From Owenia fusiformis (Eukaryota; Annelida; Polychaeta; Sabellida; Oweniidae), in the NCBI GenBank assembly GCA_903813345.2, contig CAIIXF020000008.1:21000822-21064821 (forward strand): a stretch of DNA of 64,000 bases, written 5' to 3'. The first letter of the stretch is position 1. Each line of letters starts with the position of its first letter. Below are positions 34,043 through 56,711 of this stretch, piece after piece. The position numbers were made by a program, and so were the translations under genes. The notes under the pieces are model-generated. The model made no database searches. It was given only the letters and a program-made list of their open reading frames with translations, and was not told the DNA's origin.

Positions 34043-34379
34043 ATATCAATATTGCTCATCTGGTTCACATAGTCAATATTGGCCTGAGTTCAGAAAAATG
34101 CACCATGCGAACGGCGATAATGACATAGCGGGGCAGATATGTAATATATCTGCCTGCTCAGGCTGGGACATAAAGCTTTATCTGCCCATTGATAAAAATA
34201 TAAATTTTTACAAACGTGCTTTATGTAACTGTAACACAGAGTACAGGATAAATCTACATACAATACATGCAATCTATTAATTGTGCAGACCTTTGTCGAT
34301 AAAGGAGATTCTTTGTTCAGTGCTTCTCAATTTAATATTATAGCTTCTATTTTTTTAGAAAGCAAAATCTGGAGATATC

Positions 34380-35159
34380 ATGTCAACCCTCATTGGATTC
34401 CTCATTGATGTTTCAAGTACAATGCGGTTGACTATCGGAGGCAAGCCAAGAATGAGAGAGAGTACCCATTGGTCTTATTCTATATTCAGTATGCTGGATG
34501 GCTTAATAAGGCATGATGTTTCATCCTCAAATTTTATATTTGCATTAGGGGTTGGAGCTCGTGAAAAGCCTCATACATTTGACATACTTAATACACTCAA
34601 TGAAGCCGTAACACCATTAGTTGAAAAACTAACTAAAAGACAGATGATTGAGGAAATTCTTACAATACTTGAAACACATGGCGCACCTAGAGTCCGTGTT
34701 TGGGGTAAAATAGAGGACTTGCTCGATGTTGTAGAAGATAACCAAGCAACTGCAATACTTTCAAGGCTCAGAGATGACCCAAACTTTAAAAACAGAGTAG
34801 CGAGGGAGTGCTTACCAAGTGCGTGTTGGGAAACTGATGTTCCTGTTAAACAAGATGAACCAGTGGAAGCCCCCAGTGGATTGTGGAGAGCTTGGGGCTA
34901 TGTTCGCCATACTGCAGCCAAAGCAGCATTTAATACATCCATTATAGGACAAAAAATGTTTTCCACAAAGGATAAAGTCAAAGAAGTTGTTGAAAAAGCA
35001 TTAAAATTTGCAGAAAATTTGAAACCACCAAAAATTAAGCAGGTGAAAATTATCGGTGTCAAGGATTCTCACGGGGTACCATCGAATAATTTTGGCAACG
35101 TACCGGAGAACGACATTTTACTAAGAAATGGCAATAATTTAGCACAATATATTTTTTAA
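34380..35159 (+). pseudogene. vWA-like N-terminal exon of a vWA/C1-peptidase/zinc-ribbon protein, copy 1
   Basis: A 259-codon open frame begins at ATG 34380, 22 bases after a good 3' splice site (TTTTTTTAG at 34350-34358), so the start lies in a second or later exon. It opens with LIGFLIDVSSTM, a vWA-type first strand with a partial MIDAS (D-x-S-S-T). WSYSIFSMLDGLIRHDVSSS follows, then a helical region that I associate with an uncharacterised invertebrate protein family. Residues 1-~100 are nearly identical to copy 2 at 54342. Residues 245-259 and the stop codon are not native: they are read from the palindromic element that starts at 35112. The frame is intact to that point, so a truncated 259-residue protein could still be made. 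The rest of the vWA domain is missing here, apart from the fragment at 36768. Family identity moderate; function unknown. Confidence 0.65.
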
Positions 35160-36705
35160 CTAGAGTTCTACTTTGATTTTGACAAAAGTAAGTATTCCAT
35201 GCAATGGCTATTTCATTCATGAGTTTGTAGGAATTCTGTTGGAACCCAGTTCTGATCAAGTACAAAGTTATTGAAATCGGCCCAGTCGGACTTTACTCCG
35301 AAAGATGGTTTTTCGATTATAACTTTTTACAACATTTAAGTATAGACTTTTGAAAAAAGTACAGAATAGTCCTTATACTATTGAATGATTCTGTTATTTC
35401 TGATTCACACGACTCTGATTTGTTTAATTAAAAAAAAGTTTTAAAAATATTACTTAGGAACGTAACCGGAGCTGGGAACGTAACCGGAGCAGATCAGTTG
35501 AATTATATAATTTAAAAAAATAAAATATATGATTTAAAGCATATATATTATTTACAAACACATATGAATGCTTACAGGAAAATCAATGCATGGCAAAACA
35601 TATAAATTTTCTAAAGATATATTTTTTGCACTTATATTTTAGAGTATCAAAAAATTCACTGATAGTTATTGCTTCAGTGGGAAGCTGGGAAGTAACACAA
35701 GGAGATACATTGTATAGTACAAAGTTCTGTCAAACAAAGAAGAGGCAGTCATCAGTCGCATCGCTAATTAAAAGCAAATAGGCCTAATACAAAAGTGATG
35801 CCATAAAATAGTTATTTTTTCATGAGTTAATAAATTCCTAAATTGTTCAGTGATTTTTTTTAATGTGATTGATCATGTTTGCCCTTTTCTTCCATGTTTT
35901 TCCACAATGGGGACATTCAAATACAACTTTTCCGTGGGTAATCCTTTTGTGTTTGTCCAGATATTCCTTGGTTTTAAAGGATCGTACTTCCATATCACGT
36001 CCATTTTCTTGACATAGTATAACAGAAAGGGTTCTAATAGTTCGCTGAACAAATACAATGGGTGAAATCAAATGGAATTATTTGCTTACTACATTTAATC
36101 ACTTCATTCTCCATACAATGGTTGTTCTATGTTTGATAGCCTTTCTAAGGTAAGTGCAATGATGCATGGTAAATACCAAATTTAATTTTTCACAATGGAT
36201 ACATTTTTTTCTTTAAATAAAATGTAATAAATACGCATTCGAACAATCCCTTATGTTTTTAAATTAGTATATGTGCTTTAAATCATATATTTTAATTTTT
36301 TTTGATTAAATAATTCAACTGATCTGCTCCAGTTACGTTCCCAGCTCCGGTTACGTTCCTAAATAATATTTTTAAAACTTTTTTTTTAATTAAACAAATC
36401 AGAGTCGTGTGAATCAGAAATAACAGAATTATTCAAAAGTATAAGGACTAGTCTGTACTTTTTTCAAAAGTCTATACTTAAATGTTGTGAAAAGTTATAA
36501 TCGAAAAACCATCTTTCGGAGTAAAGTCCGTCTGCGCCGATTTCAATAACTTCGTACTTGATCAGAACTGGGTTCCAACAGAATTCCTACAAACTCATGA
36601 ATGAAATAGTTATTGCATGGAATACTTACTTTTGTCAAAATCAAAATAGAACTCTAGTTAAAAAATATATTGTGCTAAATTATTGCCATTTCTTAGTAAA
36701 ATGTC
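35112..36705. mobile_element. 1.6-kb palindromic element with ~455-bp arms, inserted in the vWA gene
   Basis: Left arm 35112-~35568 starts GACATTTTACTAAGAAATGG. Right arm ~36235-36705 ends CCATTTCTTAGTAAAATGTC. The arms are roughly 95% identical by eye, including a tandem word AACGTAACCGGAGCTGGG (35459-35490) matched inverted at ~36331-36358. The ~670-bp loop holds a minus-strand C2H2 zinc-finger ORF. No target-site duplication is evident. It could be a transposon with long TIRs that carries a captured exon, or an inverted duplication. The twin ORFs in the arms (35059-35265 and 36558-36767) simply mirror each other. Confidence 0.85.
35847..36071 (-). pseudogene. C2H2 zinc-finger fragment in the palindrome loop
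   Basis: The last ~50 codons encode a complete C2H2 finger, FECPHCGKTWKKRANMINH followed by IKKNH and the stop (C-x2-C-x12-H-x4-H). It is preceded by a degenerate finger (CQEN...SFKTKEYLDKHKRITHGK) in which the second cysteine is replaced. The linker THGKVVFEC resembles the usual inter-finger linker. A TTGTTCAG at about 36040-36047 (minus strand) could be a 3' splice site for this as a terminal exon. It is too short to be a whole gene. It may be a captured exon, or part of a DNA-binding protein belonging to the element. Confidence 0.65.
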
Positions 36706-36708
36706 CAC

Positions 36709-36992
36709 TTATATCAGCAATGTCCCAAGCAACTCAATTATTCTCCAAACAAGAGTTTAAACATTAAGTGTTAGGTGTGACAACCCTTTGCTGTTTCATG
36801 ACAGATGAGTCAATATCTGATTCACGCCATTTATACTGCGAAGAATGTCCTGACTGGAAACCACCAGCCAAATTTATGTTTAGAATGAGCTCAAGTATCC
36901 CAACACAAATGATACCTCATACAATGTTCCTGAAAAAGAATTGGAAAATAGACATAAAAAATAATGAAACAAAATTATTTGCCCAAGTTTAA
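36709..36992 (+). pseudogene. Downstream fragment of vWA/C1 copy 1 (end of vWA domain and linker)
   Basis: Right of the palindrome an open frame (36768-36992) reads VLGVTTLCCFMTDESISDS, the look of the last strand of a vWA domain, followed by KPPAKFMFRMSSSIPTQ and LKKNWKIDIKNNETKLFAQV, ending at TAA. The first ~28 nucleotides around CTGTTTCATGACAGATGAGTCAATAT are also present in copy 2 at 54676-54702, so this is the same gene family. The sequence between the first vWA part (34380 exon) and this part is absent, and a frame break (TAG at 36772 in the frame entering from 36706) separates them. No C1 peptidase region follows before unrelated repeats begin at 37122. Confidence 0.65.
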
Positions 36993-37121
36993 ACTCTTGT
37001 TCAATCTATTAATTTTCAGGCATTGACGTCATTGATTTGACTCATTTGCATACAACCAATCAACGCGCAGGAAATTATCGATTTTCTTTACTTAGTGGAA
37101 AGGTGAATTGTGATTTTTTTT

Positions 37122-37422
37122 TCACGGTATTGCAACTATTTCACCCCTATGTGAGATGAGAGATATCCTATTAATATACTTTTCAACATACTTAAGATTA
37201 TCTTGCTATTTTAATCCCAATATTTATTTCTAAAAGGTTTCTGATTTCCTATTCCTTGTTTGTATCCAGTTTTATGTATTTTCTCAAGAGTTTTACCACA
37301 AATAATGTGACAAATATGTAAAATTAGACTCCGGAAAAGCTATTAGAATCTGGAGCAAGAGGGTTTTAAGACATTAGACTCCAGAGAATTTCTGGAGTCT
37401 AAAAGCCTAGTGAGAACCCTGC
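37122..37422 (+). mobile_element. Element E, right-end copy
   Basis: It has the same body as 33457-33790 in direct orientation and ends CTAGTGAGAACCCTGCA. A local palindrome, CTCCAGAGAATTTCTGGAG (37379-37397), lies near the end. Together with the left copy it brackets vWA copy 1 with ~300-bp direct repeats. Confidence 0.65.
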
Positions 37423-37439
37423 AATACTATAAGAATTGC

Positions 37440-37865
37440 CCACTGTCTAATTACACTTTTGGTAGAAGGTGGCCATTTTGAAAAATGGCCTCCATTTTAA
37501 CACATTTTACTATAACTCGAAAAGTAGTGGAGTGATTTTGTTCATATTTGGTATGTGAACACTATAAGCATGGCACACTATCTAATGACACTTTTGGTAG
37601 AAGGCGGCAAATTATATAGGACATTAATAAAGCTAGAAATGTAGATATTAAAGAAGCACATGGCGGCAATCTTGAAAAATGGCGGCCTTTACGCACTATT
37701 TTATGATTTTTGCTGTAACTCGAAAAGTATTGGAGCGATTTTGTTCATATTTGGTATGTGAATACTATAAGCATGGCCCACTGTCTAGTGACACTTTTGG
37801 TACAAGGTGGCCATTTTGAAAAATGGCCGCCATTTTAACATATTTTACCATAACTCGAAAAGTAG
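37440..37865. repeat. Tandem duplication of a GGCCATTTTGAAAAATGGC module
   Basis: The module (GGTGGCCATTTTGAAAAATGG, ACTCGAAAAGTA.TGGAG.GATTTTG, TTCATATTTGGTATGTGAA and CTATAAGCATGGC.CACT.TCTA) occurs at 37468, 37678 and 37806, the last partial. It contains the palindromic word GGCCATTTTGAAAAATGGCC. Similar GGCGGCCATTTTGAAA words occur in the repeat at 45703-51620. Non-coding. Confidence 0.75.
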
Positions 37866-37869
37866 TATA

Positions 37870-38345
37870 GCTATTGCCCCGAACCGGTCCGTCTTCTCTC
37901 TGCAAGCAGATTGCCCCGAACCGGACCGTCTTCTCGCTGCAAGCAGGATGAAATTCTTTGTCACAAAGTTTGGCATTTTTTATAAAATCAAACGCGCGTC
38001 ATTGAAACTCACAAGATGTAAATTGCATGTCATTTACATCATACCTTGATGGGGAAAAATAGATCTTATATGTAAGAAGTACTAAATAAAAGTTATCGTG
38101 AAAATGAGACAGTCGTTCTCGAGAGAAAAGAGCATAAATGCGCATTTAGAGAGTTTTGGTCCGTTTAAAAATCTGTAAAAAATTGGGGTACTTAAAAGCA
38201 TCGGGAGGCATCATATATTTCAAATTAGACACAAGGAAGTCAATATTGAGCAAGTTATGGCTGTTTTAAATTCAAATAAAACCGTTAACCCGTACCGGTC
38301 CAGCTTTTGACCCGTACCGGTCAATTTTCATTAGCTGCGTATACC
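37870..38345. repeat. Stretch with repeated CCGAACCGGTCCG words
   Basis: GCCCCGAACCGGTCCGTCTT is followed 40 bases later by GCCCCGAACCGGACCGTCTT, each trailed by TCTCNCTGCAAGCAG. At 38288-38328 CCCGTACCGGTCCA and CCCGTACCGGTCAA recur. Clustered ACCGGT palindromes with flanking copies suggest the two ends of a ~450-bp element. I cannot name it. Confidence 0.45.
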
Positions 38346-38562
38346 AAGGGTGATTACAGAGCACATTCAGCTGCTCAAGTTAAGTTAAATTGTCATTATT
38401 CCCTGAATCCTCAAGTTCTGTGAACTAAGTTACCCTTTGTACAGTAATTATGCCAACCGAATGTCAATTTTGGATAAGATTTACAGTCATTAGATCTAGG
38501 TCAATGGCATGCTGCTCCTCACTCTGTATTACATCATCATTTTGGTTGTTTATTTTTATATA

Positions 38563-41500
38563 TGTCACGATATAGGGACAAAAAATATTGACATTTTAAA
38601 AATACTGTTTATTTCGTTTTGTTATTATGAAAAGTAATTAAGGAACGTTGGCTACCTTGGCTGTTGAAACCTGGTGATATAATCATTATCTTTACGAAGA
38701 AGAGATTATGTTTTATGCAGGCATTTTAAAACACGTTACTTTGCCTTTAAAACGTTCGTTCATTGTCAATGGATGATTTTTTATGTAGCCATTTCTAAAA
38801 CACGTTACTTTGCCTTTAGAACGTTACCTTAATAGACTTTAAGTTTTCTCTAATAAGATTGGATGCTTTTTATGTACGCATTCTTAAAACACGTTACTTT
38901 GCCTTAAAAACGTTACTTTATTGGACTTAAACTGATCTCTACGAATGGATGATTTTTTATGTAGGCCATTTTCAAAACAAAGTACTTTTTCAGTAAAACG
39001 TTACTTTATTCGACTTTAACAATACTCCACGAAGAATGGATGAATTTTATGTAAGCATTTTCAAAACACGGTGCTTTGCCTTAAAAACGTTACTTTATTG
39101 GACTTAAACTTATCTCCACGAAGAATGGATGATTTTTATATGTAGGCTATTTCAAAACACAGTATTTTGACACTCCACGTTACTTTATTCGATTTTAACC
39201 ATACTCCACGAAGAATGGATGAATTTTATGTAAGCATTTTCAAACACGTTACTTTGCCTTAAAAACGTTACTTAATTGGACTTTAACTGATCTCCAAGAA
39301 GAATGGATGATTTTATATTAGGTATTTTCAAAGCACAGTACTTTGTCAGTAAAACGTTACTTTATTCAACTTTAACCATACTCCACGAAGAATGGATGGC
39401 TTTTTATGCAGGCATTTTCAAAACACAGTACTTTGCCTTAAAAACGTTACTTTATTGGACTTTAACTTTTCTCCACGAAGAATGGATGAATTTTTGTGTA
39501 GTCTTTTCAAAACACAGTACTTTGTCAGTAAAACGTTACTTTATTCAACTTTAACCATACTCCACGAAGAATGGATGGCTTTTTATGCAGGCATTTTCAA
39601 AACACAGTACTTTGCCTTAAAAACGTTACTTTATTGGACTTTAACTTTTCTCCACGAAGAATGGATGAATTTTTGTGTAGTCTTTTCAAAACACGTTACT
39701 TTGCCTTAAAAACGTTACTTTATTGGACTTTAACTGATCTCCACGAAGAATGGATGATTTTATATTAGGCATTTTCAAAACACAGTACTTTGTCAGTAAA
39801 ACGTTACTTTATTCGACTTTAACCATACTCCACGAAGAATGGATGGTTTTTTATGTAGGGCCTTCTTAAAACACGTTACTTTGCCTTAAAAACGTTACTT
39901 TATTGGACTTTAACTGATCTCCACGAAGAATGGATGATTTTTATGCACGCACTTTCAAAACACAGTACTTTGCCTTAAAGACGTAACTTTATTGGATTTT
40001 AACTTTTCTTCTCGAAGAATGGATGATTTTTAAGTAGGCATTTTCAAAACACAGTACTTTGCCGATAAAACGTTACTTTCGTGGACTTTAACTTTTCTCC
40101 TCGAATAATGGGTGATTTTTATGTAGGCATTCTAAAAACACAGTACTTTGCCAGTAAAACGTTACTTTTAACTTTATTCCTTCAAGTGTCGAACATTTTA
40201 GCCTGGTGTTTTTAAAAAGCGTTACTTTGGCCGATTTCCGTAACTTTCTTGTACTCTTAGTTTTCCTCCATCGAGCGTTGGTGAAATTTAGGTAGGCATT
40301 TTCAAAAAGCGTTACTTTGGCCCTTTTCCGTTACTTTCTTGGACTTTAACTTTTTTGCCCGATTGAGTATTTTGAATGTAAAAAATAAGGAATCAAAGGA
40401 CGATATTGAACAGTATTTTGTAAAAGTAGAAACAATTGTACGAGGCCTAACTTTTGTTTATTTTGGTTTGTTTTGTAGTTAGCTATCATATGTGTGGCCT
40501 CTTATATTTCGATGCTTCTCTGCCATGACATTTTCGACACTAAAAATTAACATGGATGAAACTCAATAAATTACTGAATGCCACACGTTTGCTGTTACTA
40601 TCTGAAATACTAAAGTTAGGCCTTGTACATAAGTTTCTATTTCTCCAAATATAGTTGCAATATGGTCATTTGATTGCTTTTTAAATTCAAAGTACTCAAT
40701 AGATGATTTTGAATCGCATTTTGACGAACTTCAGTTTTGTCTCCGTCAGTCGATAAAAAGCAGTCAAAAGACCACAGTGCAATATTAAATGGAAAAATAC
40801 ATTGGTATTCTGATGCAAACGATTGTATTGTTTGTTAGCTCGTGTTTTTAATAATACAATGTGTATATAATTCTTGAAAACTAGTGATTTAGTTCGACAT
40901 TTATGAGATGTAGTTGAAGCGAACGACATCTTTATGAATTACTCATACTTATAGTCGGATTGAAAACTGTGTTTTATAAAGATGTCGCTCAGTACAACAT
41001 GACTTGGCACAACAAAATCGAATAAACAAGATACATCATCAGACCTAGGATGAAGAAAAGAAGAATATTTGTTTTGGAAAGAGGGTCAAAATTATTGCAT
41101 CAATGTCTTAGATGGTTGCATTCAAACGTACTAATAAAGGGAAGTGAAAAATAATGCCATGTTATAAGTGACCTAAATGGCGCGGACGTCAGAGAGCGCT
41201 TTCCGGTAAAGTGGGTGTTTGGGATGAATCGATCTTTTATCGTATGAATCGCTAAAATTGCAACTCTGAAGTAATTCAACACTGTTATCGGCTAAACTAA
41301 TCTATAAATTAACGTACATTCATGAAAAAGGACCCACTTTGGTCTTTTAACCGCCTAATTGAGTACATTGAACGTTAAATAAGCAACCAACATATTGCAA
41401 CAGAAAATGAAAAAAATATAAACATGGATTAACATATATACGTACAAGACGTAACTATTGTATATTACAGATAGTTAGGTATAACGTGCAGTAAAGCTGT

Positions 41501-42843
41501 ACCTATTTAGGAAGTTTCATCCATGTTATTATTTCGAAAATAACATGGAAGATCATCGAACTACGAAACAAACCAGAACAAAAGTTAGGCATTGTACAAA
41601 AGTTTCTATTTTTCCATAACGGGTCATTTGATTCGTTGTGAATTAATAGATGGAAAAACACTACTAGCCTCTCTTTACACTATGGTCCATCTTATCTTTT
41701 ACAATTAGTAATACCACTCACTGACAAGATTTTCAAGTTACACATCGAAAAAAGTTTAAGTCCAAGAAAGTAACGGAAAAGGGCCAAAGTAACGCTTTTT
41801 GAAAATGCCTACCTAAAATTTACCAACGCTCGATGGAGGAAAACTTAAGAGTACAAGAAAGTTACAGAAATCGGCCAAAGTTACGCTTTTTAAAAATGCC
41901 AGGCTAAAATGTTCGACACTTGAAGGAATAAACTGGCCAAGTAACGTGTTTTAACAACTTGGCATGGAAACAGTTAGAGTCCACGCGAGTCCACGAAAGT
42001 AACGTTTTATCGGCAAAGTACTGTGTTTTGAAAATGCCTACCTAAAAATTCATCCATTCTTCGAGGAGAAAAGTTAGAGTCCACGAAAGTAACGTTTTAT
42101 CGGCAAAGTACTGTGTTTTGAAAATGCCTACCTAAAAATCATCCATTCTTCGAGGAGAAAAGTAAGAGTCCAATAAAGTAACGTTTTTAAGGCAAAGAAA
42201 CGTGTTTTGAAAATGCCTAATATAAAATCATCCATTCTTCGAGGAAAAAAGTTAAAGTCCAATAAAGTAACGTTTTTAAGGCAAAGTAACGTGTTTTAAG
42301 AATGCCTACATAAAAAATCATACATTCTTTGTGGGGAGAAGTTTAAGTCCGATAAAGTAACGTTTTATTGGCAAAGTACTGTGTTTTGAAAATGCTTACC
42401 TAAAAATCATCCATTCTTCGAGGAGAAAAGTTAGAGACCAATAAAGTAACGTTTTTAAGGCAAAGTATCGTGTTTTAAGAATGCCTTCATAAAAAAATCA
42501 TACATTCCGGCTTTTGTGGGGAAAAGTTAAAGTCCAATAAAGTAACGTTTTATTGGCAAAGTACTGTGTTTTGAAAATGCTTAATATAAAATCATCCATT
42601 CTTCGAGGAGAAAAGTTAAAGTCCAATAAAGTAACGTTTTTAAGGCAAAGTAACGTTTTTTAAGAATGCCTACATAAATTCCTACAAAAATCATCCATTC
42701 TTCGTAGAGTATGGTTAAGTATCATACATAAATGCCTACATAAAACATCATCTATAGTCATGTTTGACTTTCCATTATAACAAAACGAAAAAAACGGTAC
42801 TTTTAAAATGTCAATATTTTCTGTCCCTATATCTTGACACTGT
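38563..42843. mobile_element. 4.3-kb foldback element with tandem-repeat arms
   Basis: The outer ends are inverted copies: TGTCACGATATAGGGACA...ATTGACATTTTAAAA (38563) and TTTTAAAATGTCAATATTTTCTGTCCCTATATCTTGACA (ending 42843). Inside each end is a tandem array of an ~89-bp unit (AAAACGTTACTTTATTGGAC, CTCCACGAAGAATGGATG, TATGTAGGCATTTTCAAAACAC). There are about 18 units in the left arm (38650-40357) and about 11, inverted, in the right arm (41746-42720). The central 40358-41745 is unique and non-coding, apart from a direct repeat (AAAGTTAGGC.TTGTACA.AAGTTTCTATTT at 40612 and 41581). The structure resembles Drosophila FB and sea-urchin TU foldback elements. No transposase is seen, so it is non-autonomous. 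Confidence 0.85.
39302..39750. repeat. Recently duplicated ~180-bp dimers inside the left foldback arm
   Basis: Within the left arm, two-unit blocks (39391-39570 and 39571-39750) are almost identical, closer to each other than neighbouring single units are. This indicates recent local unequal exchange. The ORFs on the + strand here (39303-39768) follow the repeat and have no coding features. Confidence 0.7.
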
Positions 42844-43008
42844 TGTTTATTTTGGTTCTAGTAAGCCAGTGTAAAAGACATTGTTGATAGTATCCCATCA
42901 CTCGATAACACTGGACGAACATTTTACACAAAAAAAAACATATCGGAGTCCTAGGAACTTACACATTTAACAAATTCCTGGGGATTTAATTACCCAAATG
43001 CGAGTAGG

Positions 43009-43287
43009 TAGTTACCAGTTTCACCACCAGGTGGCTGATTCGGGTCAATTAACATGGCAGGTATATAAGAAAGTTCCCTTAAACTTGAATATTATCAATT
43101 TAAGTGGCTCAATTTTCATATAACCCTTATGTGTCTGATACTGATACTAATGAAAATACGTCCAGTAAAGCAAAATATTATCTGTCCACTAAAAGAAAAG
43201 ATATTTCATTTTTTGTGATTTTATAGCATGGGGTCTATGGGGAATCTCCCCGAGCGAGAAGTCACATTTTCAAAGAAAATTAATTTT
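43009..43287 (+). mobile_element. Dispersed repeat D, copy 2 (inverted relative to 24421)
   Basis: TAGGTAGTTACCAGTTTCACCACCAGGTGGCTG at the left and GGTCTATGGGGAATCTCCCC...AGTCACATTTTCA at the right match 24421-24700 in reverse orientation over the whole ~280 bp. Confidence 0.65.
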
Positions 43288-43572
43288 TCAAAGTTGATAA
43301 ACACTTTTTAAAACCACATTTCTAGATGTAATTTTACATGTAGATTTCAAATATGATATTACTTTGACTCAATTTTGAATTTTTAATGACGTAAATCAAG
43401 ATTATTTCCACTCGCATCTGGGTTATTGACAAATTTTGCCACATTTATTTTTGTGATTTTACAAAAATCGCGAAAAACGCAAAACTTAATCGAACGCAAA
43501 AAATACCGGGAGTACAGTACAATTCAGCTTCAATGTTTGTTTAGACTACACTGCAGAATATAATATGCCATT

Positions 43573-43742
43573 GCAGGCCCGTAGCCAGAGGGGGAGCTGG
43601 GGGAGCTCCCCCCCTGGCCAGAAATTCTTTCAAAATCATGCAGTTTTGCACCATTCTGAGAATTTTTCGCATGACTTTAAGTGAAAAAGCTCCCCCCTGG
43701 AAAAAAGCTCCCCCTCCTGGTAAAAACTGGCTACGGGCAAGC
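43573..43742. mobile_element. Family B MITE-like element, copy 5
   Basis: GCAGGCCCGTAGCCAGAGG at the left, ACTGGCTACGGGCAAGC at the right. The interior CAGAAATTCTTTCAAAATCATGCAG and CTCCCCCCTGGAAAAA is shared with 10007-10162. A minus-strand ORF through it is rich in Ala/Pro only because of the C-rich ends. Confidence 0.75.
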
Positions 43743-43770
43743 ATTGACAGTTCTATAGCTGATTTTCTAA

Positions 43771-44376
43771 TACCGTATTCTCTGTAATTACCGCCCACTC
43801 TCTAATAAGCGCCCACCCTGCTTCACAAAGTTCAAGAAACATCGAGGAATCATAATAATCCATAATGAATGAAGGAATTGTTCTTTATCGGCATTCAGAA
43901 ATTTCAAAAGCTACTGCGCAGATGTTCTGCGCATGTCAAGGTCGTGAACTTTCTGGTTTCTTTTTAATGTTTCTCGACTTTTACACGACTTTTGCACGAA
44001 TAATGATGATCTCTCATCAAATTAGAAATAATGTATAACTTTAGATCGATATCCAGCAGTCTCTAGTGGAAATATTGAAGGTAATCGGCGATAATGACAA
44101 AGTGGGCGTGCCGGAAATAAATTAGACATAGACAGGTCTTCAACCACTGTCAATATTGTCTAAGCGATCTTTACCGTATTCTCTCCAATAACAGCACTTG
44201 TCATATTATTATAAAAATATGTTGAAGAAAATGCATTCTTGTCAAGAAAAATTGCCATACATGAAATTCCTCGGGATTTCTGATTTCTTTCATACATGGG
44301 CGCTTATTAGAATGGTCTAAATAATGTATTTTCAATTTTCTAAACGCCCTGGGCGCTAATTACAGAGAATACGGTA
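43771..44376. mobile_element. MITE with ACCGTATTCTCTGTAATTA ends
   Basis: Near-perfect 27-bp inverted ends: TACCGTATTCTCTGTAATTA continuing CCGCCCA at 43771, and the complement (GCGCTAATTACAGAGAATACGGTA) ending at 44376. An internal copy of the end (ACCGTATTCTCTCCAATAACAGC) is at 44174, so the element may be a fused dimer. Non-coding. Confidence 0.85.
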
Positions 44377-45254
44377 CATATTTTAAACAAGTAGTTTCGT
44401 ATATATGAGGAGTTACGTATTATATATTATTAGACTCCAGATTGAAAATTTGTCGTTTTTTGGGAACTTTTATGGATTTTGAGAAATTCAACTTCAAAAA
44501 ATGGTGAATTTTAAAGTGTTCTAAATCTATTGTGATTGGTATCAATTAAATAGGAAATTTTCGCAGGATTCCGAGTTTGAAATCAAAATTGAAATCCAGT
44601 TGACCTTTTATGGCCTTTTAAAGAAAAAAACTTAAAATTTTAAAATCTTTATTTTGACTTTAAAATAGGTTTAAACAAAACAAAGGGACCTTAAAAATAA
44701 TATACATGCATGGCATACATCATCTTTTTCACTGAGAAATAATTCTACGCACCCCCTTTTCAAATATGATCAGACGCCCCTGTTCTACCTCATATTTTCA
44801 ACCTCTATTTTCTCCTTTACCTCTTGGAAAACGTTCAAACCATTCTATCTGACACTTTGCCTCACCATTAACTACAACTTTCACATTGATTACATAATAT
44901 CTGGAACCAGTCCATTGAAGACATGGAACAAGTACCTCGTGTGGAAGCAAACTTACTTTTCCTTATGATATGAATGACAATGCCAAAATGCAATGTGTGT
45001 ATGCCAAAATCGGACGCGCTTATGCCAAATAATAATTGAAAGTTGCTCAAGCTCTCATTTCCTTACAATATACTAACATACCGTATTCGTTATAATGAAA
45101 CGGAACAACATTACCTTATTAATTACTTAAACTGCCATTAATGTTTCATCAATGTATTTTAACCAATGTTATATTACTCGCACTAGCTTCAACACCAAAT
45201 AAAAATATTTCAATAGAGATAAATAAATAACTTAATAAATAAATAAATAAGAGT
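44377..45254. other. Gene-free stretch
   Basis: No coding region with recognisable features. ACGCACCCCCTTTTCAAATATGATCAGACGCCCC near 44747-44780 resembles a single family C end. Confidence 0.45.
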
Positions 45255-46295: not shown

Positions 46296-46402
46296 TATGA
46301 CCTGAATCGATTGCAAATTAAATAAATAATTTCACAATATGACACAAATGGTATATCACATCAGATGTGCAAATATAAAGTTTGCAATTGATTCAGGTCA
46401 TA
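46296..46402. repeat. ~107-bp hairpin
   Basis: TATGACCTGAATCGATTGCA (46296) pairs with TGCAATTGATTCAGGTCATA (ending 46402), with one mismatch across 22 bases. Between them is a 63-base AT-rich loop. Confidence 0.75.
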
Positions 46403-46548
46403 CTTCAAATTAAAAGATTTACATTTTTTCCTCATTTTTTCCCTACAAAATGTTGCTTCAAAAGCAACATTTACACTTATGGAATCCCATACAACTTTGT
46501 AAATCCAAAGATTATACTATTATGTTTCATTAATTAATAACATATTTT

Positions 46549-49500
46549 GACAAGGCATTAACATGACAAAATGTCACCACCTAGTTGCTCACAATATTAT
46601 GAGTTCAAACTTAAGTCAGATTTGAATTTCTGAGAAATTTGGTCAATTTGAAGCAAGTTGAAAACAGACCTTTTTGACCTTTTTTGACCTTGAGAAGGTC
46701 ATTAAAGGTCAAATCTAAAGTCAGATTTGAATTTCTGAGAACATGTTGATGATTTTGAAAAAAAAATTTGGTCAATTTGAAGCAAGTTGAAAACAGACCT
46801 TTTTGACCTTTTTTGACCTTGAGAAGGTCATTAAAGGTCAAATGTCAAATCTAAAGTCAGATTTGAATTTCTGAGAACATGTAGATGATTTTGAAAAAAA
46901 AATTAGTCAATTTGAAGCAAGTTGAAAAAATACCTTTTTGACCTTTTTTGACCTTGAGAAGGTCACTAAAGGTCAAATGTCAAATCTAAAGTCAAATCTA
47001 AAGTCATATTTGAATTTCTGAGAACATGTAGATGATTTTGAAAAAAAATTTAGTCAATTTGAAGCAAGATGAAAAAATACCTTTTTGACCTTTTTTGACA
47101 TTGAGAAGGTCATTGAAGGTCAAATGTCAAATCTAAAGTCTAAAGTCAGATTTGAATTTCTGAGAACATGTAGATGATTTTGAAAAAAAAATTAGTCAAT
47201 TTGAAGCAAGTTGAAAACAGACCTTTTTGACCTTTTTTGACCTTGAGAAGGTCATTAAAGGTCAAATGTCAAATCTAAAGTCAGATTTGAATTTCTGAGA
47301 ACATGTAGATGATTTTGAAAAAAAAATTAGTCAATTTGAAGCAAGTTGAAAAAAGACCTTTTTGACCTTTTTTGACCTTGAGAAGGTCACTGAAGGTCAA
47401 ATGTCAAATCTAAAGTCAAATCTAAAGTCATATTTGAATTTCTGAGAACATGTAGATGATTTTGAAAAAAAATTTAGTCAATTTGAAGCAAGATGACAAA
47501 ATACCTTTTTGACCTTTTTTGACATTGAGAAGGTCATTGAAGGTCAAATGTCAAATCTAAAGTCTAAAGTCAGATTTGAATTTCTGAGAACATGTAGATG
47601 ATTTTGAAAAAAAAATTAGTCAATTTGAAGCAAGTTGAAAAAAGACCTTTTTGACCTTTTTTGACTTTGAGAAGGTCATTGAAGGTCAAATGTCAAATCT
47701 TAAGTCAAATCTAAAGTCAGATTTTTATTTCTGAGAACACGTATATGATTTTGAAAATTTTTTTTAGTCAATTTGAAGCAAGTTGAAAACAGACCTTTTT
47801 GAACTTTTTTGACCTTGAGAAGGTCATTAAAGGTCAAATGTCAAATCTAAAGTCAGATTTGAATTTCTGAGAACATGTAGATGATTTTGAAAAAAAAATT
47901 AGTCAATTTGAAGCAAGTTGAAAAATACGTTTTTGACCTTTTTTGACCTTGAGAAGGTCATTGAAGGTCAAATGTCAAATCTAAAGTCATATTTGAATTT
48001 CTGAGAACATGTAGATGATTTTGAAAAAAAATTTAGTCAATTTGAAGCAAGATGAAAAAATACCTTTTTGACCTTTTTTGACATTGAGAAGGTCATTGAA
48101 GGTCAAATGTCAAATCTAAAGTCAGATTTGAATTTCTGAGAACATGTAGATGATTTTGAAAAAAAAATTTAGTCAATTTGAAGCAAGTTGAAAAAAGACC
48201 TTTTTGACCTTTTTTGACTTTGAGAAGGTCATTGAAGGTCAAATGACAAATCTTAAGTCAAATCTAAAGTCAGATTTGAATTTCTGAGAACACGTAGATG
48301 ATTTTGAAAAAAATTTTTAGTCAATTTGAAGCAAGTTGAAAACAGACCTTTTTGACCTTTTTGACCTTGAGAAGGTCATTGAAGGTCAAATGTCAAATCT
48401 TAAGTAAAATCTTAAGTCAGATTTGAATTTCTGAGAACACGTAGATGATTTTGAAAAATAAATTTAGTCAATTTGAAGCAAGTTGAAAACAGACCTTTTT
48501 GACCTTTTTTGACCTTGAGAAGGTCATTGAAGGTCAAATGTCAAATCTAAAGTCAGATTTGAATTTCTGAGAACATGTAGATGATTTTGAAAAAAAAATT
48601 TAGTCAATTTGAAGCAAGTTGAAAAAAGACCTTTTTGACCTTTTTTGACTTTGAGAAGGTCATTGAAGGTCAAATGTCAAATCTTAAGTCAAATCTAAAG
48701 TCAGATTTGAATTTCTGAGAACACGTAGATGATTTTGAAAAAAATTTTTAGTCAATTTGAAGCAAGTTGAAAACAGACCTTTTTGACCTTTTTTGACCTT
48801 GAGAAGGTCATTGAAGGTCAAATGTCAAATCTAAAGTCATATTTGAATTTCTGAGAACATGTAGATGATTTTGAAAAAAAATTTAGTCAATTTGAAGCAA
48901 GATGAAAAAATACCTTTTTGACCTTTTTTGACATTGAGAAGGTCATTGAAGGTCAAATGTCAAATCTAAAGTCAGATTTGAATTTCTGAGAACATGTAGA
49001 TGATTTTGAAAAAAAAATTTAGTCAATTTGAAGCAAGTTGAAAAAAGACCTTTTTGACCTTTTTTGACTTTGAGAAGGTCATTGAAGGTCAAATGACAAA
49101 TCTTAAGTCAAATCTAAAGTCAGATTTGAATTTCTGAGAACACGTAGATGATTTTGAAAAATTTTTTTAGTCAATTTGAAGCAAGTTGAAAACAGACCTT
49201 TTTGACCTTTTTGACCTTGAGAAGGTCATTGAAGGTCAAATGTCAAATCTCAAGTAAAATCTTAAGTCAGATTTGAATTTCTGAGAACACGTAGATGATT
49301 TTGAAAAAAAAATTTAGTCAATTTGAAGCAAGTTGAAAACAGACCTTTTTGACCTTTTTTGACCTTGAGAAGGTCATTGAAGGTCAAATGTCAAATCTAA
49401 AGTCAGATTTGAATTTCTGAGAACATGTAGATGATTTTGAAAAAAAAATTTAAGTCAATTTGAAGCAAGTTGAAAAAAGACCTTTTTGACCTTTTTTGAC

Positions 49501-50031
49501 CTTGAGAAGGTCATTGAAGGTCAAATGTCAAAACTTAAGTCAGATTTGAATTTCTGAGAACACGTAGATGATTTTGAAAAAAAAATTTAGTCAATTTGAA
49601 GCAAGTTGAAAACAGACCTTTTTGACCTTTTTTGACCTTGAGAAGGTCATTGAAGGTCAAATGTCAAATCTAAAGTCAGATTTGAAGGTCAAATGTCAAA
49701 TCTAAAGTCAGATTTTAATTTCTGAGAACATGTAGATGATTTTGAAAAAAAATTTAGTCAATGTGAAGCAAGTTGAAAAAAGACCTTTTTGACCTTGAGA
49801 AGGTCATTGAAGGTCAAATGTCAAATCTAAAGTCAGATTTGAACTTCTGAGAACATGTAGATGATTTAGAAAAAAATTGAAGTCAGTCTAAACAGTATTT
49901 GTTAAGTTATAGGAAGTTGTAAGAAATTGTTACAGACGCCAACCGCCGGACGCCAACCGCCGGACGCCAACCGCCGTCGCAAAAAAACGGAGACCATAAC
50001 AATATGTCACCACTTTTGGTGGTGACATAAT
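46549..50031 (+). mobile_element. Family A hairpin-ended element, copy 7, expanded by an internal satellite
   Basis: The left end GACAAGGCATTAACATGACAAAAT.GTCACCACC (46549-46581) is followed by CTAGTT and the satellite. The family A sequence resumes only at ~49900 (TTATAGGAAGTTGTAAGAAATTG), then a 14-bp triplication of CCAACCGCCGGACG (49938-49978), GGAGACCATAACAATATG and the terminal hairpin ATGTCACCACTTTTGGTGGTGACATAAT. Satellite-free copies (31582, 15265) join the same two flanks within ~50 bp, so ~3.3 kb of satellite occupies the element's interior. Confidence 0.85.
46605..49890. repeat. ~140-bp satellite, about 24 units, with higher-order structure
   Basis: Units of 132-150 bp contain AAATCTAAAGTCAGATTTGAATTTCTGAGAAC, ATGTAGATGATTTTGAAAA, TTAGTCAATTTGAAGCAAG, GACCTTTTTGACCTTTTTTGACCTTGAGAAGG and TCATTGAAGGTCAAATGTC in that order. 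Length varies through extra CAAATCTAAAGT blocks. Sub-types (ACCTTGAG, ACATTGAG or ACTTTGAG; AAACAGACC, AAAAGACC or AAAATACC) recur in ordered sets. The block near 47990-48700 is repeated near 48840-49550 at an 849-bp offset (for example AAATGACAAATC at 48241 and 49090), a six-unit higher-order repeat. Non-coding. Confidence 0.95.
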
Positions 50032-50134
50032 AAGATTAATAGAGGGATGTGTAGGATGCAAATGGATTTTGAAGACACAAAAAGACTTCCTGGTTTGGCA
50101 TCTCTACCCCTGTGATTGAATATTGGCCCTAATA

Positions 50135-50541
50135 AGGGGAGGCATCAAAAGTTCGATGTCGGATAGAAAACTAAATAAATCTAGTTAGGGGGGAGGGGGT
50201 TCAAACCCATTTCAGTTTGCTATCCGACAAATTTCAACATTTCAAATTTTCGGCAATTTGACTCAGAATGCCTTCGAATGGTTTAAAAATAAAGATCTTA
50301 CCTGATGCTTTCTTCGTCAAGATCATTCCAAAGGATTCTATTCTATCAATAGTTGTTAAAAGCAGCAAATGACGATAGGAATTAACAAAAACTAGATCAT
50401 GCTTAGCAATAATTTTTCAAATTCTCAAACCAGAAGTCAGGGACCAACTTTCATGATATTTAGTTTTTGGGGGAGGGGGGGTCAGAGTCAAAACTAGATT
50501 TATTTAGTTTCCAATCTGACATTGAACTTTTGATGCCTCCC
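50135..50541. mobile_element. 0.4-kb MITE with ~50-bp TIRs
   Basis: GGGAGGCATCAAAAGTTCGATGTC...AACTAAATAAATCTAGT (50135-50186) is repeated inverted at 50492-50541, with about four mismatches. G-rich tracts (GGGGGGAGGGGG) sit just inside both TIRs. It lies between the family A element and the right end of the 4.65-kb element. Confidence 0.85.
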
Positions 50542-51671
50542 TTAGTTGCCCATTCATCAATACAGTGCTGAATATAGGTCAACAAGATACAAGTGTACAC
50601 ATAAATGTAATAATAAAAGCAGTATATTTATTTTGAAAAATCAGATGAATTTATTTTTGTTCATGGGGAGATCATAATGGAGGGCGCACTAGATCCTTTG
50701 AAGTAAATCCGTCCAATGGTATTTGAGTTATCAAAGATTACCTTTTTCATGAAAAATGGCAGCCATTTTGAAATTCAGCTGACGGCTTTGAAATTTCTTC
50801 TGAAGCAGATCTTCTTTTTCTCTAAACATCAGCATATAAAATTGGAACCAAATCCATTGACTGGTATTTGAGTTATCAATGATTACGTTTTTTTTTACAA
50901 AAAATGGCGGCCATTTTGAAATTCAGTAGCCATCTTGAAAATGCTGGCTATTTTTATCCCAGATTAAAATAGCATAATAGATATAAAAAAATAAATATAA
51001 ATAAATATAAAATTGGAACCAAATCCATCAACCATCTTGAAAATGTCTTCTTGAGCAGCACTTCTTTATCTCTAGGGATCAGCATTTAGAATTTGAACCA
51101 AATCCATCAACTGGTATTTGAGTTATCAAAGGTTACGTTCTTTTATGAAAAATGGCGGCCATTTTGAAATTTAGCTGCCATCTTGAAAATCCCTTCTAAA
51201 GCAGAGCTCCTATGTCCTTAGGCATCAGCATGTAAAATTTGAACCAGATCCATTCAATGGTATTTGAGTTAGCAAAGATAACATTTCTTTACGAAAAATA
51301 GCTGCCATTTTGAAATATGGTGGCCATCTTAAAAACATCTTCTTGAGCAAGGCTCTTTTGTACACAGGCAACAGCACATAAAATTTGAACCAAATCCATC
51401 CACTAGTATTTGAGTTATCCATTTAGCCATTTTGAATTTAATGGCCATATTGAAAATTACTTCTCCAATGGAGGTTATACACCCATAAGGCATAAGGCTA
51501 TAAAATTTGAATGAAATCCATCAACCGGTATTTGAGTTATTGCCCAGACACATGAACGGACAGACGAACAGATGGACGGCTTTTCTATATCCCCCTCAAA
51601 CTTCGTTTGGTGGGATAAAAAGTACAAAAACATATTTCTTCGCAGAATTCACCAGCCAAATGCAACCCACT

Positions 51672-52080
51672 TAAGGTACAGCTGGAAAGTAACATTTTGG
51701 TAAAAAATTGCTATACCTGCACATGTTATTTTCTGGTACAAAATAAAGTATGAAGGCATGTATCAATTTCCTTGCTTTTTTCAGGAAAGTATCATTACAT
51801 TGTCTTCTTTTAGAATATCTGGTAGGCGTTCAAAGGGAACTCCAGGGAATTCTGATATTTCACACTTCCTGTTTTTCCAAATTTTCTTTCAAAGTTTCCA
51901 GACAACACAGGAGCTACCATTGACCTGTTTCCAGGTTTACTAAAAGTAGACAGTGTAATGATACTTTCTGAAAAAAGCAAGGAAATACACACATGCCTTC
52001 ATACTTAATTCTGTACCAGAAAATAACATGTGCAGGTATAGCAATTTTTTACCAAAATGTTACTTTCCAGCTGAACCTTA
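51672..52080. repeat. ~410-bp palindrome with ~150-bp arms
   Basis: TTAAGGTACAGCTGGAAAGT through GAAAGTATCATTACATTGTC (51672-51822) is inverted at ~51936-52080, with over 90% identity by eye. The ~110-bp loop includes GACCTGTTTCCAGG. Mirror ORFs on both strands result. It is a foldback MITE candidate. Confidence 0.85.
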
Positions 52081-52093
52081 AGGTGGCATAAAG

Positions 52094-52697
52094 TGCTGCT
52101 TATTTTTTCGTGAAGCCACTCAGTAAAATTACAATTTCTCTGCACCCTGATGTCCAATCAACATCATTTGAGTATATATCTCCCTTACACGTTTGGGCAT
52201 CCGGTAATGACAACATCTACCCAATGAAAAAACCTGGAAGACTGCAGATTTCATGTAATGATTTACGTTCATGTAAACAAGTAAAGTACATTTAATCCCA
52301 ATATAAAACACTGGCCTACATATAATAACATGTTCAAACTGAAATATAGAAAATTTTCGACATAGCATTTGCTTCCGTGTTCTGTATGCCCCTCTACCTA
52401 CTTAATAAGGCAATGTATCTTCAAATAAAACTTTAGCCAAGTAGATCTATTAGAGTCTCTGGAACACTTTTATAAATAGTTTTCACAAGCAATTTTGTTT
52501 GTGAATATCAAATTTTGTCTTCCCGATTTCAGTCATGAATTACATCAATTTCGCGTGCAAACTTTGGGTAGACGTTGTTATTCCCGGACGCCAAAACGTG
52601 TCAGGAACACATAGATACTTGAATAATCTTGATTGGACATAAGGTTGCAGAGAAATCGTAATTTTATTGAGTGGCTTTACAAAAAAATAAAAAATGC
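52094..52697. mobile_element. ~0.6-kb MITE with ~90-bp TIRs
   Basis: The left arm has GAAGCCACTCAGTAAAATTAC, AATTTCTCTGCA and GATGTCCAATCAA (52110-52162). The right arm is the complement (TTGATTGGACAT, TGCAGAGAAAT, GTAATTTTATTGAGTGGCTTTAC, 52631-52680). The ~400-bp interior has no coding features. It lies 14 bp from the palindrome at 51672-52080. Confidence 0.8.
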
Positions 52698-52749
52698 TAT
52701 ACGCCTCATTTATCATAAATAATGTACTGAATTAACAACCCAGCCTATG

Positions 52750-53345
52750 GTTTCTATACTGACAGGCCTACTCCAAGGGGTTTACTATATATAAACCTTG
52801 ACGGGGATCCTCAGTGCACATGGGATATCTTTTTTGACATTTGGTATGGCAATGGACCCAAAATTTAGGATCTGGAATGATAATGACCCCGAAATTAAGC
52901 CTTGAGATATGGCAATGGGTGGATTTTCAACTACATGTATCTGGTATTGGAAATATGTGGCCTCACACTTGTGGTATGGCGTTGGTCTAGTAGTTACACA
53001 TATCTTTAATTTGAGGTTGTTTGAATCATTTTTCTCAAAGATCTACCTTCTTGTCAGGTTTTCTTCAGTTTGAATTGAGACTAACATACCTAGAAGATTT
53101 GAATATTGTTTTTTTGCCCTGTGGTATGGCATTGGTCCTATATTTGGTATGGCATTTGTTTTATATTTGGACATTTGGTATGGCTTTTGGCGTTATTTTT
53201 GTTGGTATGAGAACACATTGAAATTGACAGATTGGTATGGGAACATATTGATATCTGAGGGTTCAGCCTAAGGACCCTGCCGAATTTTGAATACAGTGAA
53301 CCCTGGCGGTCTACAACAGTCTATACTGACAGGTCTACTTTCAGT
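52750..53345. repeat. Region with repeated GGTATGGCATTGG words
   Basis: TGGTATGGCAATGGACCC, GTGGTATGGCGTTGGTC, GTGGTATGGCATTGGTCC and shorter relatives occur at 52852, 52973, 53121, 53142, 53168 and 53235. TATACTGACAGGYCTACT is repeated at 52756 and 53322, bracketing them, so it may be a direct-repeat-flanked element. Non-coding. Confidence 0.5.
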
Positions 53346-53379
53346 CAATGTCCCATATCAAAATTGCATTGACAGGTGC

Positions 53380-53835
53380 ATTTCAATTACGGTAATCACA
53401 ACCTGCCATTGACGATATACATGTGAAAGTTTCCTGAAAATGACTCCCTTAAGTCCTGCTTTTTGTCAAATTCTATAGAGTAAACACCAAAAACTGTAAT
53501 TCCCAGAGCTTTGAAATCTTCAGAGGACATATGTTGCACATAAAGCAACTACTACCACTTATTTGAAAGTTCTACTTCAACAAAGTGTCTGATGTTTACA
53601 GAAAATTTGACATTTTGACTTCAAAATTGGCAATTTCTCGGAAACCGGGCGATGATGAATGGCGATGAAAGGTCAAACAGGCGTTATGGATATGCATAAA
53701 ATGAATGTAAATATGACTCAATACGAATAGCAGTTTTAATTTGTGCGGCCAATGATGATTGACTTTATACATGAGTAAGTTCCCTGAAAATGACAAAGTC
53801 CTAATTTTTGTCAAATTAGATGATCCCAACCCGTG
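53380..53835. repeat. Diverged direct repeat (CCTGAAAATGAC modules)
   Basis: TATACATG.GAAAGTTTCCTGAAAATGACTC...AAGTCCT.CTTTTTGTCAAATT at 53416-53476 recurs as TATACATGAGTAAGTTCCCTGAAAATGAC...AAGTCCTAATTTTTGTCAAATT at 53766-53818, a ~350-bp offset. Class unknown. Confidence 0.55.
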
Positions 53836-54082
53836 CCTAAGGTTGCCAAACTTTTGGAGAGAAGTGTAACTTTACTCTTTTTTCCTAACTATAGGACTCT
53901 GGTGTTCACCATAACAAATATGTTCAAATTCGTTCACTGGTATAAAATTATCAAATTGCACAGTAAAATGTTTTTGGTTATCGCTCTGAATTTTGCGCAA
54001 AAATATTTTTTGGGAAATCCTGACCGAGGGTTCATTCGAACCAATCGAACCCCCAATCCCTACGGCTATGAGTTGACATCAA

Positions 54083-54150
54083 TCGCCAACCGCCGTCACA
54101 AAAAATGGAGACCATAACAATATGTCACCACTTTTTGGTGGTGACATAAT
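54083..54150 (+). mobile_element. Family A element, right end only (copy 8)
   Basis: CGCCAACCGCCGTCACAAAAAATGGAGACCATAACAAT plus the terminal hairpin ATGTCACCACTTTTTGGTGGTGACATAAT. It closely matches the right end at 49965-50031. The left part is gone. Confidence 0.8.
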
Positions 54151-54341
54151 TATAGCAACCATATCAGGAGCGAAATAGTCTGACAAGGAATGTCCCTTAA
54201 AGTATATTTTAGAGACTGAATACCCATATCTCCTATTTAAAGGGCGATAAATAAAAAGCATAATTCCAATAAGTTAAAAAGATCTAATAAAAAGATTTAA
54301 TACCCTTTAATTTTTTAGACCTCAAAATACGGATAGATATC

Positions 54342-54690
54342 ATGTCGGTCCTTATTGGATTCCTCATTGATGTTTCAAGTACAATGCGGTTGACTATCGG
54401 AGGCAAGCCAAGAATGAGAGAGAGTAGCCATTGGTCTTATTCTATATTCAATATGCTGAATAAAGCATGACGTTTCATCCTCAAATTTTATATTTGCATT
54501 AGGGGTTGGAGCTCGTGAAAAGCCTCATACATTTGACATACTTAATACACTCAATGAAGCGGTAACACCATTAGTTAAAAAACTAACTAAAAGAGAGATG
54601 ATTGAGGAAATTCTTACAATACTTGAGAAACATGGCGCACCTAGAGTCCGTGTTTGGGGTAAAAAAGAGGATTTCCTGTTTCATGACAGA
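54342..54690 (+). pseudogene. vWA-like N-terminal exon, copy 2, frameshifted
   Basis: ATG at 54342 follows a 3' splice site (TTTTTTAG at 54311-54318), as in copy 1. Sequence is nearly identical to 34380-34725. An 8-bp deletion (GATGGCTT of copy 1) after ...SIFNML creates a stop (TGA) within three codons. The remaining ~65 codons (HDVSSSNFIFALGVGAREKP... to RVRVWGKKEDF) stay open in the shifted frame. At ~54673 the sequence jumps to the CTGTTTCATGACAGATGAG piece that in copy 1 lies at ~36791. About 400 bp of coding sequence present in copy 1 between those points is therefore deleted. It is a pseudogene in its N-terminal half. Confidence 0.75.
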
Positions 54691-54699
54691 TGAGTCAAT

Positions 54700-55308
54700 A
54701 TGTGTCAGCAATACAGACTGAGGTGCAAGAAAGTGGACTTGAAAGGTGCTATAGAGGCCATAAGTGAGAAACGACCAGTGGTTGCCAGGTTCCGTTTAAC
54801 TGCAGACAAATGGACGCGGTTCAAGGAGTTTTATGAAAACCATCCAAATGGTATTCTCAGCAGAAAAGATTTGGAGATAAGCAGGGAGCAAAACGCTCAA
54901 ATAACAGGACATGCTGTGGTGCTGACAAGTTATGACAGTAAAGGTCTACGCCTAATGAACTCTTGGGGACGGGATTGGGCAGAAGGTGGTTTCTTTAAAA
55001 TACGGGACGCAAATGTACTAGGTCTGGAGTTTATTGATGTCTACTGGGAAGAGGATGACCTCACAGAATCGGAAAAGGATGCATATAAACTATCTGGACC
55101 AAAGAAAGCCAGAGAGATAGTGTCCACTCTTAAAGGGCTAAAGCTTGCAAAATACAGATGCCCAAAGTGCTGTGTTGACTCCCATATAAGTCTTTTTAAG
55201 GGCACTTTGTTGAGGGCAAGATGCCCTAAATGCAAAGAAACATTTGACACTAATAAAAAGGGTAACATTCTTGCATTGAATATGTATCTGACATCACTGT
55301 GCCAGTAA
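54700..55308 (+). pseudogene. Papain-like C1 peptidase C-terminal half plus zinc ribbon (copy 2)
   Basis: An open frame of 202 codons from an ATG at 54700. Residues 70-102 read GHAVVLTSYDSKGLRLMNSW then GRDWAEGGFF, the His (71) and Asn (87) active-site blocks of papain-family C1 peptidases. Residues 24-45 (RPVVARFRLTADKW) match the strand that usually precedes them. The catalytic cysteine block is absent upstream. Residues 154-178 hold two CxxC pairs (CPKC and CPKC, 18 residues apart), a zinc-ribbon-like C-terminus. The ATG is probably not native: TGTGTCAG at 54701-54708 resembles a 3' splice site, and the sequence upstream is a vWA remnant. The frame is intact and conserved-looking, so this exon decayed late or is still used by splicing. 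Fusion of a vWA region with a C1 peptidase is the family's recognisable feature; function is unknown. Confidence 0.7.
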
Positions 55309-56400
55309 TTCTTGACCGACCTATATTCCATCCCCTACACTTAATAAATAGGGAAAATGTATAAATCGGTTCTAGGTTCTAATTTCCACCTCTGAATCTT
55401 TAGACCCCTGTATGAAATTGGTCTGCAGCTTTGTTCTGAAAAACACATCACAGTCCACCTTCTCCCCCTCTACCCACAATGATCATAAGTAAAAATGGAA
55501 TTTGCTTGCATATACTATTATACAGATCATTAACTAAAGCCTAGCTTATATTATCTTGAATATTAACTGGGTCAAAATTTGAAATCGCTTTGAATGTTAA
55601 ATAAATATTTATTAATCAACACTTCAAAGTTTGGGATCTCATTCTTGAGCATTTTCAGTTTGTGAAGTTTTTTATATCCCTCGTTGAGCTTGATGATTTA
55701 AGCAATGACTTTAACAATATATGGCATAAAATTCAAGGGAGACAAAATTGTACATAAGGGAGGGGTTAAGTTACACTGTTTTGAAAAATGTGAATATGTA
55801 AAATCATTGTCTCCAATGGATTTTTCCAGTTTATTTCTTGAGGACCTCATAGGAGGATAAGAACCCATGAGGATCATAATGATACTTAATCAAGTTCTCT
55901 AAAGTAGCTGTCACATTAGCCATATGGGCTCACCAGCATTTGATGCCAAGTGGCTAATTTTGGGTACTAATTCAATAGTTAATCATTTTATTTGGTTTGA
56001 TGGGGATATCTTGCTGAAGAACTTTTTGTTTTCACACATTGGAGAATGGTGAGCCCACATTATCTAGTGTGAAAGCTCCATAAAATATGCTTTTACTTAC
56101 TTCTATACTAAGATACATGTATATAGTACTTCAAAAATCTCAACGATATAAAGTTCACAAAGTTCTCCATAACTCAGACAAAGTTATTATAAGAATAAAG
56201 AAAAAAATATACGAGTAGGACTAGGAGTTTGGCTAATCAAAGTTGAATATATGTTTAACATGCCCCCTCTCATAAGATTGAGGCTAATTTGAAAAATAAT
56301 AACACATTGCATTTGAGATATGTACCTGTAATAAATCTAGCAAATATATGGAGAGTATTTGCAGACAACAATTCAGATTGTCAAGTTGATATTAAATGGG
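55309..56400. other. Gene-free stretch
   Basis: 3' flank of copy 2. No ORF with features and no clear polyadenylation signal beyond a weak ACTTAATAAATAGGG at ~55339. Confidence 0.45.
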
Positions 56401-56404
56401 GAAG

Positions 56405-56711
56405 TTACTCAAGCAGTTTTGGATATCATCCAGGATATTTTCTTTAAATTTCATAGTATCTTGTTTTAATGTAATCTTTGGAAACTTCTAAAATGTCTAG
56501 GCACATTCCAGATTGCTGGCATCAACTAGCTTTAGCTTCCATCAATAAACAGGGGTTCACATTGAACATTTTGTCTTGGCAAAATATGTTCACTATAGGT
56601 TTAACTGTACTTGGTACAATCTTTAAAAAGCCTCATGTATTTGACCTATTTAATACGCTCAATGAAGCATTACGAGAAGTCACTGCTACTAGTGATCCAA
56701 CATTTATATAA
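56405..56711 (+). pseudogene. Third, heavily decayed copy of the vWA exon region
   Basis: AAAAAGCCTCATGTATTTGACC...TTTAATACGCTCAATGAAGC (56626-56669) matches the codons for EKPHTFDILNTLNEA of copies 1 and 2. Upstream, AGTTTTGGATATCATCCAGGATATTTTCTTTAA (56415-56447) matches 33411-33442, the sequence ~950 bp upstream of copy 1. No start codon or MIDAS region survives between them, so a large deletion is likely. Confidence 0.6.

Follow-up and report, generated by a model that had tools for sequence, protein, structure and literature searches.

A 64-kb stretch of Owenia fusiformis contig CAIIXF020000008.1 (hereafter the window; 33.4% G+C), which looks like a piece of an animal genome, carries two related and broken gene copies together with a short scrap of the same sequence. 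Copy 1 lies at 34340-36989 and copy 2 at 54300-55308, and the scrap is 43 bp long. We put the probability at roughly 70% that these are decayed, DNA-level duplicates of one animal gene that coded for a multidomain, protease-like protein. The decay itself, by deletions and by a transposon-like element, is ordinary and well supported; a preliminary description of this DNA had called it a decaying duplicated locus, and a frameshift, two deletion joints, an element insertion, and an in-frame stop all agree with that account.

The start regions of the two copies (34340-34723 and 54300-54677) align at 90.9% identity within the window, and each contains an ATG, at 34380 and 54342, respectively; the coding part of the region is 93.0% identical over 344 aligned columns. 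A comparison of 111 of the 115 codons, with the four at the gap left out, gives seven synonymous and 10 nonsynonymous changes and a ratio of nonsynonymous to synonymous rates (dN/dS) of 0.40; the synonymous excess suggests past constraint, although at a binomial P of 0.067 it is not proof. The leader 5′ of the copy 1 ATG (34340-34379, plus strand), which includes TTTTTTTAG, aligns with 54300-54341 of copy 2, matching in 31 of 42 aligned columns with gaps in two, and the alignment score of 28 was reached by none of 1000 shuffles (best shuffle, 27). Divergence is higher in the leader (9/40) than at synonymous sites (7/75), although not significantly so (Fisher P 0.087).

The similarity resumes farther upstream, where local alignment pairs a block at 33837-33884 in copy 1 with one at 54199-54253 in copy 2 (both plus strand); the score is 44, whereas the best of 200 dinucleotide-model shuffles reached 30. 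A palindromic hairpin resembling a miniature inverted-repeat transposable element (MITE) lies directly after the copy 1 block (33882-34035; self-inverted match of 76.0% over 154 bp), and the distance from block to ATG is longer in copy 1 partly for this reason. Only about 65 bp separate the copy 2 block from the splice acceptor supposed at 54318, which makes an intron there doubtful. The preliminary description also had one N-terminal exon present in three pieces; the ATG-bearing start region is common to copies 1 and 2 as claimed, whereas the third piece proves to be the 43-bp scrap (56626-56668, plus strand) and not an exon. The scrap is identical to copy 1 at 38 of 43 positions (E 9.7e-10 in the window), and its score of 61 exceeds those of all 100 shuffles (maximum 36). 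No further pieces of the gene were found by blastn at E 0.05 within the window, other than a 21-bp match at 11989-12009 (minus strand; E 0.014) to the last remnant of copy 1, which we take as chance.

Copy 1 retains 244 open codons (34380-35111, plus strand), as the preliminary description had stated, and these comprise a vWA-like beginning with the motif DVSSTM and a predicted helical stretch. At 35112, after the 244 codons, the frame enters a 1594-bp, foldback-type terminal-inverted-repeat element (35112-36705) that splits the copy; its arms of about 450 bp are 95.4% identical over 452 columns, its middle holds a C2H2-finger-like fragment on the minus strand (judged by eye from the translation), and no target-site duplication was seen by eye. 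On the 3′ side of the element, a remnant at 36706-36764 (plus strand) contains ISAMSQATQLFSKQEFKH and is followed by a TAA at 36765-36767. Its frame suggests that it is coding, with no database match, and hhalign places it very weakly (probability 0.4%) on the helix that follows the vWA metal-site Thr. The same frame resumes after the stop as a last coding remnant of 74 codons (36768-36989, plus strand), which contains VLGVTTLCCFMTDESI and is flanked by a perfect 15-bp inverted repeat (36748-36762 / 36987-37001) identified in a repeat search. Two direct copies of a dispersed repeat (33492-33783 and 37118-37383, 79.5%) flank copy 1 as a whole.

Copy 2 opens with the leader, the ATG at 54342, and the vWA-like beginning (54300-54677, plus strand, from its alignment with copy 1). 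A deletion of 8 bp at about 54458-54460 has shifted its reading frame, which, followed from the ATG, ends after 42 codons. Two joints follow. Near 54670 the start region passes into a short middle segment (54672-54704, plus strand; SCFMTDESI) that is recognized by its match to 36787-36819 of copy 1, the two sharing 93.9% identity over 33 bp; near 54700 this segment gives way to a C-terminal piece (54700-55308, plus strand) carrying the His/Asn half of a C1 peptidase and two CxxC pairs, with a stop at 55306-55308 and an AATAAA at 55343. The sequence TTGCT is present in both copy 1 flanks of the first joint (34719-34723 and 36788-36792), copy 2 has TTCCT, and the joint would fit a microhomology deletion. 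Neither copy in its present state is able to make the parent protein.

Within about 1 kb of copy 2, then, one strand carries the start region, followed by the 36787-type segment and, last, the C1 piece. This supports the view, proposed at the outset, that a single gene was the source of all the pieces, and it gives the order of that gene's parts. It is unlikely, given this arrangement, that the pieces derive from different genes and that a rearrangement attached a C1/zinc-ribbon exon of unrelated origin to copy 2, an account that would agree with the absence of the C1 piece from copy 1 (tblastn within the window) and of any copy 1 counterpart to the joint at 54700. About as improbable, in our estimate, is that 54694-55308 is a living exon, either of a still-spliced and catalytically dead C1/zinc-ribbon protein or of an allele of a functioning gene. 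The 204 open codons, the stop with AATAAA 35 bp after it, and a C1/zinc-ribbon piece that is itself free of stops and frameshifts all suit such an exon; the copy 2 ATG frame that ends after 42 codons, the joint at about 54700 with no clear acceptor by eye, and the prospect of a protease without its Cys half do not.

The copies could also be retroposed, processed pseudogenes, and no intron is evident inside the pieces. Moreover, a perfect 13-bp direct repeat (34270-34282 / 37002-37014) brackets copy 1, its right member adjoining an arm of the 15-bp inverted repeat. However, sequence 5′ of the leader is common to both copies, which argues for duplication at the DNA level rather than retroposition; copy 1 has lost its 3′ end and not its 5′ end, and its 3′ side has no poly-A run before 37002. 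We therefore regard retroposition as improbable, a shade more so than either of the preceding accounts. We weighed whether the 13-bp repeat marks a target-site duplication of copy 1 in its entirety and dropped the idea, since neither a poly-A run nor anything else supported it. With a common flank and disabling changes in both copies, the locus is most likely one of pseudogenes made by DNA duplication.

Among the parts of the parent protein, the vWA-like domain is placed by residues 1-77 of the start piece. Aligned by hhalign with 14 bacterial vWA domains, these residues gave a probability of 48% and a score of 28.2, where none of 60 shuffles rose above 1.1% or 15.6. Because the panel had been selected with a DxSx[ST]M-type pattern that the query itself contains, these figures somewhat overstate the support. 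The call is of moderate strength and would hold for these first 77 residues only. Like metal-site vWA domains (VWA_2, PF13519), the start piece has a hydrophobic strand and, as DVSSTM, a metal-site-type motif, both at its extreme N terminus. It differs in having no Pfam vWA match, and of the complete metal site (DxSxS, Thr, Asp) nothing beyond DVSSTM can be seen, the Thr and Asp parts being lost or lying at the element and deletion joints. A low-confidence structure model of the start piece (mean predicted local distance difference test score, pLDDT, 37.3) shows strands at residues 3-10 and 52-59, with helices beginning at 63. With the putative vWA strand starting near residue 3, the sequence agrees with the earlier remark that no signal peptide is visible.

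The C1 peptidase call comes from copy 2, whose open reading frame (ORF) matches the papain family (PF00112) at 22.5 bits and, as a trimmed piece, at 24.2 bits, above the Pfam cut-off of 20.7. This bears out the His/Asn blocks reported in the preliminary description, GHAVVL and NSWGRDW, which are those of the papain family, presumably MEROPS family C1; from the papain motif we take the codon at 54910-54912 to be that of the catalytic His and the one at 54958-54960 that of the Asn. With the C1 piece as query, the top match among PDB sequences was dipeptidyl peptidase I (E 0.00078), and weaker ones were to papain-type enzymes, all in the His/Asn region. NCBIfam gave four matches, all below cut-off, and in PHROGs the best match was to a family of phage peptidases (E 0.0041), others being weaker. 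The two CxxC pairs, also reported before, are present at 55159-55170 and 55222-55233 with the spacing CxxC-x17-CxxC; they follow the C1 block, and in this, as in having no Cys half, the piece differs from the papain family as such.

Several results weigh against reading the copies as relics of one such multidomain protease gene. No intact parent gene was seen. Pfam listed no vWA family for the start piece (only LpxI_N, at E 0.13-0.15), and the PDB sequence search found no match for it. Residues 78-244 scored 0.1% against the vWA panel by hhalign, as did the piece at 36768, whose score of 9.4 falls short of the highest among 60 shuffles of the piece (15.8) and for which no Pfam family rose above its cut-off (only c-SKI_SMAD_bind was listed, E 0.073). 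The last vWA strand that had been placed at 36768 is accordingly unsupported. The structure models of the start piece and of the C1 piece (mean pLDDT 48.3 for the latter) are too poor for fold comparison. The PF00112 match covers only profile positions 128-205 of 220, and no credible Gln/Cys half was found in the window, where a six-frame motif scan gave seven matches, judged by eye, one of which spans the 54692 joint of copy 2 but in a different frame. The zinc-ribbon families are all weak, the two best at 18.8 bits under cut-offs of 27 and 24.1.

The term papain-like protease used in the preliminary description thus needs qualifying: the His/Asn half is above the Pfam cut-off, and the catalytic cysteine would lie beyond the relic. 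That description also omitted the inverted-repeat element, the remnant at 36706-36764, the 33-bp segment, and the upstream block, and it did not remark that the Cys half is absent; its adhesion-type sensor is supported by no result.

Relatives outside animals were sought with the individual pieces. In viral contigs, none of 12 candidate stretches was confirmed for the C1 piece, none of six for the start piece, and none of 12 for the 36768 piece; a plasmid search with the start piece and a phage search with the C1 piece gave no match. Prokaryote genome contigs scanned with the C1 piece yielded five confirmed stretches out of 32, all within query residues 14-107, and five of 198 genomes of one phylum had a match, all within residues 60-121 and none reaching the zinc ribbon. 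The bacterial C1 proteins are 29-58% identical to the C1 piece in block identity. The 10 ORFs behind the prokaryotic matches carry C1, some with DUF4384, and no vWA or zinc-ribbon family was listed for any of them (Pfam, E up to 0.01); in this the bacterial C1 proteins are unlike copy 2 with its CxxC pairs, and a bacterial origin of the whole layout is therefore without support. For the N-terminal part, NCBIfam had no match to the start piece or the 36768 piece, the best PHROGs match to the start piece was at E 0.1, and PADLOC matched it weakly at best (E 0.044 and 0.045). The parent's first 244 residues are thus named by no library searched, these being Pfam, NCBIfam, PHROGs, PADLOC, and PDB sequences.

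Taken in the order preserved in copy 2, the pieces imply a parent in which a vWA-like domain, with a helical stretch within or following it, precedes a papain-like C1 peptidase and a C-terminal zinc ribbon. The parent probably had no signal peptide and, because of this, was probably cytosolic or nuclear. We think that it probably acted inside the cell as a protease under regulation, every functional step of that proposal being inferred: its metal-site vWA domain would bind a partner or substrate, this binding would control or target the cysteine protease, and the zinc ribbon would add a second contact. Invertebrate proteins of this layout probably exist, which would also speak against separate origins of the pieces; we treat this as a lead only. 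A literature search, judged by titles and the beginnings of abstracts, found no published account of a vWA/C1/zinc-ribbon layout. It is possible, and we offer it tentatively and at rather long odds, that the parent came from an invertebrate family, so far undescribed, of proteases without signal peptides that exist in many copies and turn over fast, and in which a metal-site vWA domain gates a papain-like protease with a zinc ribbon of its own.

If this were true, the vWA-gated protease layout would parallel the vWA-fused effectors of bacterial conflict systems. According to PMC7159879 and PMC8195603, the MoxR-vWA conflict systems of bacteria have effectors fused C-terminal to vWA, and the likeness lies in the general idea of a vWA and a peptidase on one chain. 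The peptidases named in these sources (PMC7159879, PMC8195603) are mostly trypsin- or caspase-like, with transglutaminase-like thiol peptidases rare and in another component, and the vWA is partnered by an AAA+ ATPase. No ATPase was found among the 15 window ORFs and pieces given to Pfam, a set that samples the window rather than scanning it whole.

The locus is a case of everyday gene death, and its value is as a pointer to the order of the parent's parts. The strange part is the parent layout, which is visible in pieces only, with the catalytic half absent from view. With an intact copy, the idea of an intracellular papain-like protease under vWA control could be tested directly.

The remainder of the window holds other genes and repeats. 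Upstream of the copies, Pfam finds LRR and TIR domains in a Toll-like receptor-like ORF (633 codons; 19356-21257, minus strand) and identifies an MFS transporter ORF (26245-27660); the 183-codon ORF at 23816-24367 matches no Pfam family above its cut-off. An Rfam scan of the whole window gave no matches. Downstream lies a reverse transcriptase ORF of 908 codons (RVT_1 in Pfam; 60144-62870). Tandem repeats are present at several places. A 29-bp unit is repeated 34.3 times with 91% matches at 566-1558; arrays at 38768-40168 and 41988-42678 consist of one 89/179-bp unit in opposite orientations with less than 2 kb between them; and arrays at 46635-49876 and 59161-60052, about 9 kb apart, share one unit of approximately 136-147 bp and are up to 92% alike.

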